From positions 1,550,001-1,614,000 of the forward strand of contig CP036201.1 in the NCBI GenBank assembly GCA_004299845.1: a stretch of 64,000 bases of DNA, given 5' to 3'. This DNA is from Verrucomicrobia bacterium S94. GTDB taxonomy: Bacteria > Verrucomicrobiota > Kiritimatiellia > Kiritimatiellales > Pontiellaceae. The position numbers and the translations under genes are program-made. This document shows, one piece after another, positions 48,686-50,238 of the stretch. Numbering within the stretch: the first letter of the stretch is position 1; each line of letters opens with the position of its first letter. Under the pieces are notes generated by a model. It was not told the origin of the DNA. It searched no databases and saw nothing but the letters and a program-made list of their open reading frames with translations.

Positions 48686-48712
48686 CGATAAATCGATGAA
48701 ACGGAGTTTATG

Positions 48713-49336
48713 ATGAGCAGAGTTGTTGAGCTGAAGCACCCCCTGGTAAAACACCATATGGCGATGCTGCGGGATAAAAATACCCCCACCTATATTTTCC
48801 GGGACCAGATCCGCCGGCTGACCCTGCTACTGGCCTACGAAGCCACCGCAACATTACCTGTTGAGGAGGTTTCTGTGGAAACGCCGTTATGCACCACAAC
48901 CTGTAAACATATACAAACCCGTATCGGGCTCGTTCCGATTCTGCGCGCCGGTCTCGGGATGTGCGAAGCGGTTCAGGAACTGATTCCTCAGGCCGAAGTC
49001 TGGCATCTGGGGTTTTACCGCGATGAATCGACGCTGAAACCGGTTGAATATTATCAGAAATTTTCGGACCATCCTCCCGAAATCGCATTTGTTCTTGATC
49101 CCATGCTGGCCACCGGCGGTTCCGCAGTCGAAGCGGTGAATATGGTAAAAAACTGGGGCGCGGAAAATGTTTCCATGCTCTGCACCATCGCCTCTCCGGA
49201 AGGTATTGAAAAAGTTCAGAAAGCTCATCCGGATGTTTCCATTTTCGCCTGTGCCATCGATGAATGTCTGAACGAAAATGCCTATATTCTTCCCGGCCTC
49301 GGTGATGCCGGCGACCGAATTTTCAACACCCTTTAA
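48713..49336 (+). CDS. upp: Uracil phosphoribosyltransferase
   Basis: 207 residues. MSRVVELKHPLVKHHMAMLRD, PILRAGLGMCEAVQELIPQAEVWHLGFYRDE and the PRPP motif AFVLDPMLATGGSAVEAV identify Upp. The second of two adjacent ATGs is used because GGAG is better spaced. Salvages uracil to UMP. Confidence 0.95.
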   Translation: MSRVVELKHPLVKHHMAMLRDKNTPTYIFRDQIRRLTLLLAYEATATLPVEEVSVETPLCTTTCKHIQTRIGLVPILRAGLGMCEAVQELIPQAEVWHLGFYRDESTLKPVEYYQKFSDHPPEIAFVLDPMLATGGSAVEAVNMVKNWGAENVSMLCTIASPEGIEKVQKAHPDVSIFACAIDECLNENAYILPGLGDAGDRIFNTL

Positions 49337-49365
49337 GCGATAACCCCAAACGAAGGAGTAAACCC

Positions 49366-49806
49366 ATGAAAAAAACAGCCAAATATCTGACTATTATGGT
49401 CCTGTTCGGAGCCATTACTACCGCATCGGTCATGGCACACTGCCAGGTTCCCTGCGGCATTTATGATGATGAAATGCGTGTTAAAATGATGTATGAACAC
49501 GTCACCACCATCACCAAAGCCATGAAGCAGATCGAAGCCGGTCAGAATGCCAACCAGACCACGCGCTGGATCATGAATAAAGAAAAGCATGCCGATGAAA
49601 TTATGGAAATTGTTTCAGACTACTTCCTTGCCCAGCGCATCAAAGAAGGCATGGACCACTACGAAGAAAACCTGAAAATACTTCACCGTATTATCGTCTA
49701 TTCAATGAAATGCAAACAAACCACCGACGTAGCCAACGCCCAGAAACTGAGTGAAGCCATTCACACACTGGAACACACCTACTTCGGCGAAAAACACCAG
49801 CACTGA
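49366..49806 (+). CDS. sodN: Nickel superoxide dismutase with a Sec signal peptide
   Basis: 146 residues. A signal peptide (residues 1-24; Lys2-Lys3, hydrophobic core, SVMA) is directly followed by HCQVPCGIYDD, matching the Ni hook H-C-x-x-P-C-G-x-Y of nickel superoxide dismutases: His25 (mature 1), Cys26 and Cys30 (mature 2, 6) and Tyr33. The 122-residue mature part fits the four-helix fold of NiSOD (about 117). Known bacterial NiSODs use a short propeptide cut by SodX; here signal peptidase would itself free the His, with export to the periplasm (inference). No sodX is seen. AAGGAG precedes the start, 29 bases after upp. Confidence 0.9.
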   Translation: MKKTAKYLTIMVLFGAITTASVMAHCQVPCGIYDDEMRVKMMYEHVTTITKAMKQIEAGQNANQTTRWIMNKEKHADEIMEIVSDYFLAQRIKEGMDHYEENLKILHRIIVYSMKCKQTTDVANAQKLSEAIHTLEHTYFGEKHQH

Positions 49807-49809
49807 GTG

Positions 49810-50238
49810 CTACCACCAGAGTGAATAGGCCGGGTCCAGAGGAAAGGCATTTTCAATATGCCGGATCTCAGGATCTCCTCCGGGCCGGCCGATCACTTCA
49901 ATAACGTCAAACCGGATGTAATCGGGTTTGGCGTTTTTCTTTTTCAGGTAATTTACTGCGGCTCGGGATAAACGCCTGCGCTTCTCTTTGTTAACAGCGG
50001 AAAACGGCCGGCCGAAATCTTCATTTTTCCGGGTTTTGACTTCGACAAAAACCAGCGCGTTCCCATCATCGGCGATGATATCAAGTTCATCGTGTTTTCC
50101 CGAACGGACCCGTTTACCGATGATTTTCCACTTTCTGGCTTTCAGAAAACGCACAGCCTGTTTTTCGCCCCACTTTCCGGCCTGCAGATGGGCGGTTTCA
50201 GTTTTATGCCGAAACAGCCTTTCAATCCACTTCCGCAT
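49810..50238 (-). CDS. YraN/UPF0102 family protein
   Basis: 142 residues. GKWGEKQAVRFLKARKWKIIGKRVRSGKHDELDIIADDGNALVFVEVKTRKNEDFG is the restriction-endonuclease-like core (E..D..ExK) of this family, usually between rnhB and other genes. Role unknown, possibly DNA processing. Overlaps the glgA stop by 17 bases and ends three bases from the convergent sodN stop. Confidence 0.9.
   Translation of the reverse strand: MRKWIERLFRHKTETAHLQAGKWGEKQAVRFLKARKWKIIGKRVRSGKHDELDIIADDGNALVFVEVKTRKNEDFGRPFSAVNKEKRRRLSRAAVNYLKKKNAKPDYIRFDVIEVIGRPGGDPEIRHIENAFPLDPAYSLWW

Follow-up and report, generated by a model that had tools for sequence, protein, structure and literature searches.

A nickel superoxide dismutase of Verrucomicrobia bacterium S94 with a predicted Sec signal peptide ending at the nickel hook

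Cytosolic nickel superoxide dismutase (NiSOD) is processed by a cognate peptidase, SodX (PMC3919588, citing Eitinger 2004). The locus described here raises the question of how the first histidine of the nickel hook would be freed in a NiSOD precursor that begins with a Sec-type signal peptide and is encoded in a genome in which no sodX is recognised. The gene lies in a stretch of 64,000 nucleotides from Verrucomicrobia bacterium S94 (contig CP036201.1, positions 1,550,001 to 1,614,000, forward strand), hereafter the window.

The sodN locus and its signal peptide

The features of the locus are as follows, numbered from the first letter of the window.

48710 to 49336, forward strand: upp, uracil phosphoribosyltransferase, 29 bp upstream of sodN (PF14681, E 3.3e-72)
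49353 to 49358, forward strand: Shine-Dalgarno-like AAGGAG, 7 nt 5' of the sodN ATG (from sequence)
49366 to 49806, forward strand: sodN, nickel superoxide dismutase precursor, 146 aa (PF09055)
49366 to 49437, forward strand: predicted Sec-type signal peptide, 24 aa, MKKTAKYLTIMVLFGAITTASVMA (n-, h- and c-region; same register in 131 relatives)
49438 to 49464, forward strand: Ni-hook HCQVPCGIY with nickel ligands His1, Cys2 and Cys6, start of the predicted mature protein (from conservation)
49438 to 49803, forward strand: mature four-helix-bundle domain, 122 aa (AlphaFold2 model; match to 1t6u)
49795 to 49803, forward strand: C-terminal His-Gln-His tail (H-x-H), in the sample confined to the exported class
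49810 to 50238, reverse strand: YraN/UPF0102 nuclease-like gene, convergent, 3 bp past sodN (PF02021, E 6.4e-25)

In the ORF translation the precursor reads MKKTAKYLTIMVLFGAITTASVMA followed by HCQVPCGIYDD, and according to the profile search sodN is the sole copy in the 4.1 Mb genome. The closest named relatives, with 75% identity, are those of Pontiellaceae bacterium B12219 and Pontiella sulfatireligans. A strong Shine-Dalgarno sequence precedes the start codon in most relatives too.

The signal peptide was called from the -3,-1 rule, hydropathy and conservation. The n-region carries KK, the best 10-residue Kyte-Doolittle mean is 2.6, and with V at -3 and A at -1 an A-x-A-like site, VMA before HC, sits immediately ahead of His1. 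An earlier note on this DNA had proposed that the hook starts exactly at the predicted signal peptidase site (SVMA before HC), and this was borne out: the -3,-1 rule is satisfied at the His1 register in 129 of 131 proteins of the class, against 0 to 49 of 131 at twelve other registers tested, which excludes chance. In the phylum the N-terminal extensions of all 42 proteins read have Ala or Gly directly ahead of HC after a hydrophobic stretch, most of them with a basic start. The same build was found at 80 loci in named genomes of Desulfobacterota, Planctomycetota, Bacteroidota, Nitrospirota, Aminicenantes, Calditrichaeota, Acidobacteria, Zixibacteria and others, in a scan whose hook-derived pattern selects for the type of hook and not directly for a signal peptide.

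Planctomycetota possess NiSOD in 43 of 246 genomes and in two classes. Class A, the SodX-type class, occurs in 13 genomes and has the hook HCDGPCG[VI]YDP after a leader of 9-20 residues (median 16 aa) with little hydrophobicity. Class B is the signal-peptide class of the window protein, called exported hereafter on the strength of that prediction. The hydropathy medians are 2.72 for exported-class peptides vs 0.53 for SodX-type propeptides (p 5e-9, a value that overstates the evidence because relatives share ancestry).

Export might also be followed by a cut further upstream, for example after TTA and ahead of SVMAHC, with a second peptidase or an aminopeptidase trimming the chain to His1. In the window protein the position between TTA and S obeys the -3,-1 rule as well, and four planctomycete members with a non-cleavable residue at -1 would require such trimming. 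Against this stand the conservation at the His1 register, with at most 49 of 131 at any register upstream, and the pattern within the genus, where the pair of V at -3 and A at -1 is retained in most members and upstream residues drift. We regard the upstream cut as unlikely for the window protein.

The four planctomycete proteins (L193, L194, L197 and L198) carry R, W, L and R at -1. To judge by their sequences they look exported and would need trimming to His1; release of His1 by signal peptidase alone may therefore not hold for the whole class.

As to gene context, the earlier note had pointed out the position next to upp. The adjacency itself stands, but upp is not a recurrent neighbour in related loci, and the supposed link to sodN was dropped as without meaning. 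Recurrent neighbours of sodN in Kiritimatiellales are yraN, glgA, rnr and rny; the adjoining yraN represents conserved synteny, and no maturation role is assigned to it. Some anaerobes have desulfoferrodoxin-like genes near an exported-class sodN (L107:4499-4870, L114:4691-5062 and L135:5562-5948), and rubrerythrin-like genes are found near exported-class sodN in L087, L116 and L133.

Nickel site, predicted fold and C-terminal tail

Pfam Sod_Ni (PF09055) covers residues 21-143 of the precursor with 113 bits against a cut-off of 25 (E 1.8e-32). The cut-off of the sodN equivalog model TIGR02753 is missed (57.2 bits vs 90), which marks the window protein as a member of a divergent class. It shares the hook HCxxPCGxY and the four-helix bundle with the cytosolic NiSOD/SodX system of Streptomyces and Prochlorococcus (TIGR02753/TIGR02754), with HC[EQ][VI]PCGI in the window class vs HCDGPCGVYDP in the cytosolic one. 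His1, Cys2, Pro5, Cys6 and Gly7 do not vary among the 144 proteins compared (131 of class B and 13 of class A), and position 9 is Tyr or Phe across all of them.

The AlphaFold2 model of the mature part, built with 49 aligned sequences, has four helices (pLDDT 91.8, pTM 0.85). Its top matches among solved structures are all Streptomyces NiSOD (1t6u: TM 0.80, 2.3 A). A second structure comparison of the model with 1t6u gave Z 15.2 and 2.2 A over 114 residues, a moderate margin over the next unrelated helical bundles at Z 12.8. NiSOD also ranks first in a sequence profile search, with His1 aligned to His1; the single window protein gave no phmmer match in the PDB at 1e-3, so that profile and fold were required. 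The predicted mature fold thus agrees with that of solved NiSOD (1t6u/1q0d).

The second shell of the Streptomyces enzyme, in which Arg47 forms a hydrogen-bond network with His1 and Glu17 (PMC5722923), is not kept: neither Glu17 nor Arg47 is conserved in the window class, so the rate may differ from that of the Streptomyces enzyme. As a mark of the exported class or of the genus, the change at these two positions was rejected, as they differ in both classes. The position of Streptomyces Arg47 is held by His51 (mature numbering) in 130 of 131 exported-class proteins and by Gln in the planctomycete SodX-type class. Judged from the alignments, the two classes have different putative second shells around the nickel.

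Many members of the window class end in an H-x-H tail, unlike cytosolic NiSOD. The motif lies within the last eight residues in 57 of 131 class B proteins, where shuffles lead one to expect 2.0 (maximum 7 of 500); none of the 13 class A proteins has it. The test was devised after the pattern had been seen, and the relatives are non-independent. Besides the window protein, His-rich C-termini, either H-x-H or long, were noted in L010, L031, L044 and L155. The apparent restriction of the tail to the exported class is new here, and a role in collecting nickel would be our guess.

The tail and the altered second shell could be read differently, namely as signs of an exported nickel- or metal-binding protein, for capture or storage, which has the NiSOD fold and no active superoxide dismutase. 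The H-x-H or longer His tails, the loss of Glu17 and Arg47 and the near-invariant His51 would fit such a protein, and exported metal-capture proteins with an N-terminal His, for nickel or other metals, are described in PMC12537917. What argues for an enzyme is the conservation of the three side-chain ligands, of Pro5 and of an aromatic residue (Tyr or Phe) at position 9. Gene context points the same way: no recurrent nickel transporter was found near class B sodN in the neighbourhoods compared, and desulfoferrodoxin- or rubrerythrin-like genes are located close to sodN at a few class B loci. We regard a mere metal binder as unlikely.

SodX and the two classes

In the SodX-type class a short soluble propeptide is found; the window class has a hydrophobic Sec signal peptide in its place, and SodX is absent. 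The genome search for sodX suggested by the earlier note was carried out with the model TIGR02754 (cut-off 63.25 bits), and no protein of the window genome reaches the cut-off (best 20 bits). The same holds for all 53 sodN-bearing genomes of the phylum, the window genome among them, and for the 30 genomes behind the named loci, which come from several groups. An E. coli genome used as control had neither the sodN nor the SodX model above cut-off.

Planctomycetota permit a comparison within one phylum. SodX is above cut-off in 9 of the 13 class A genomes, with a weaker match in 3 more, and in none of the 30 genomes with the signal-peptide class only (Fisher p 1.3e-6, shared ancestry ignored). 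In 12 of the 13 class A genomes sodX lies on the same contig as sodN and within about 300 bp of it; the thirteenth locus ends at the contig end. Both classes occur together in three planctomycete genomes, as L187 and L150 (G497), L189 and L146 (G566) and L188 and L147 (G588). A tree built from 113 mature domains splits class A from class B at one branch (SH-aLRT 99), the lone Streptomyces row being long-branched. A search for a second phylum with both classes led to Bacteroidota, where NiSOD is present in 3 of 395 genomes, all of the exported class.

It is very unlikely, in our view, that the hydrophobic segment is an uncleaved membrane anchor on an inactive protein, or that a SodX-like protease which escaped recognition matures the NiSOD. 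The candidate for the latter is a short signal-peptidase-like fragment in the window genome with a weak match to the SodX model (20 bits). This 99-codon ORF (L006:1372-1671, forward strand) corresponds to no more than the C-terminal third of signal peptidase I, which it fits better than SodX (40.8 vs 20.9 bits); it was rejected as SodX and is likely a signal peptidase I remnant or a truncated second copy. An uncleaved anchor would not explain why 129 of 131 proteins have a small residue at both -3 and -1. Lipidation of Cys2 by signal peptidase II, for which the Cys two residues past the site might speak, and Tat export are both extremely improbable and were dropped, because His precedes Cys2 in 131 of 131 proteins, which excludes a lipobox, and a Tat motif occurs in 0 of 131.

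The proposal of the earlier note, a NiSOD without SodX as an alternative maturation route, gains support from the site register, the absence of SodX and the contrast between the classes, all read from sequence. Its framing as a matter of this locus did not last: the class is widespread across many phyla, and the predicted exported NiSOD is a whole class and no peculiarity of the locus.

Proposed maturation and its meaning

The family, signal peptide, site register, SodX absence, fold and two-class split are computed results; from them we infer that the protein is cleaved, resides in the periplasm, loads its nickel outside the cytoplasm and is active. We hold it to be very probable that the window protein is an exported NiSOD in which Sec and signal peptidase I free His1, nickel is bound in the periplasm and SodX is replaced. 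The precursor would pass unfolded through the Sec translocon, and signal peptidase I, present in the genome as an intact LepB of 373 residues, would cleave after VMA and leave the N-terminal amine and the imidazole of His1 free. The mature chain would then fold into its four-helix bundle in the periplasm and bind periplasmic nickel via His1, Cys2 and Cys6, and the resulting superoxide dismutase would guard the cell envelope. A single cut would thereby serve both targeting and active-site maturation, standing in for SodX and the short propeptide of the cytosolic class. Against this route, Cys2 and Cys6 could oxidise to a disulphide in an oxidising periplasm ahead of nickel binding. The window genome also encodes a Mn/Fe superoxide dismutase without signal peptide, so cytoplasm and periplasm may each have their own superoxide dismutase, the Mn/Fe enzyme being left for the cytoplasm; no superoxide reductase was found in this genome.

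The arrangement of a signal peptide plus His is already in print. PMC12537917 (October 2025) started a search from the signal peptide and His of a planctomycete NiSOD and retrieved many NiSODs; its seed, the Roseiconus lacunae protein WP_230780104.1, MTRLLTATLALMFTASIASAH (Table 1), likewise has a signal peptide that ends right before His1. In the part of that paper accessible to us the protein serves as seed only, and SodX, classes, route and tail are undiscussed. A literature search, with most subscription journals outside its scope, found no paper that sets out two NiSOD classes or a signal-peptidase route. His-brace proteins (LPMOs, CopC and DUF4198; PMC12537917) likewise have an N-terminal His ligand made by signal peptidase. 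They differ from the window NiSOD in having other folds, metals or functions. We know of no cytosolic counterpart of the His-brace proteins with its own protease. Periplasmic CuZn superoxide dismutase (SodC) is a Sec-exported superoxide dismutase of the envelope, as the window NiSOD is predicted to be, and is unrelated to it in fold and metal.

On balance we lean towards a more general picture, in which NiSOD comprises two classes that differ in compartment and whose maturation is interchangeable: SodX matures the cytosolic class and the general signal peptidase the exported one. The exported class would occur in many phyla and load its nickel outside the cytoplasm, perhaps aided by the His tail, and genomes with both classes would use one per compartment. 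Both classes have A-x-A ahead of His and are cleaved directly before His1 (a prediction for the exported class), and SodX is a relative of signal peptidase. This suggests a simple evolutionary link, in which SodX could have emerged or disappeared as NiSOD moved from one compartment to the other.

Absence of sodX has been taken as a possible loss of function in cyanobacteria (PMC8346466). For the exported class such a reading would mislead, because SodX would not be needed there. If the proposed route is true, an enzyme whose nickel-binding thiolates oxidise easily works in the cell envelope, under conditions of nickel supply and thiol oxidation unlike those of the cytosol, and mature NiSOD would be directly producible in a laboratory host without SodX.
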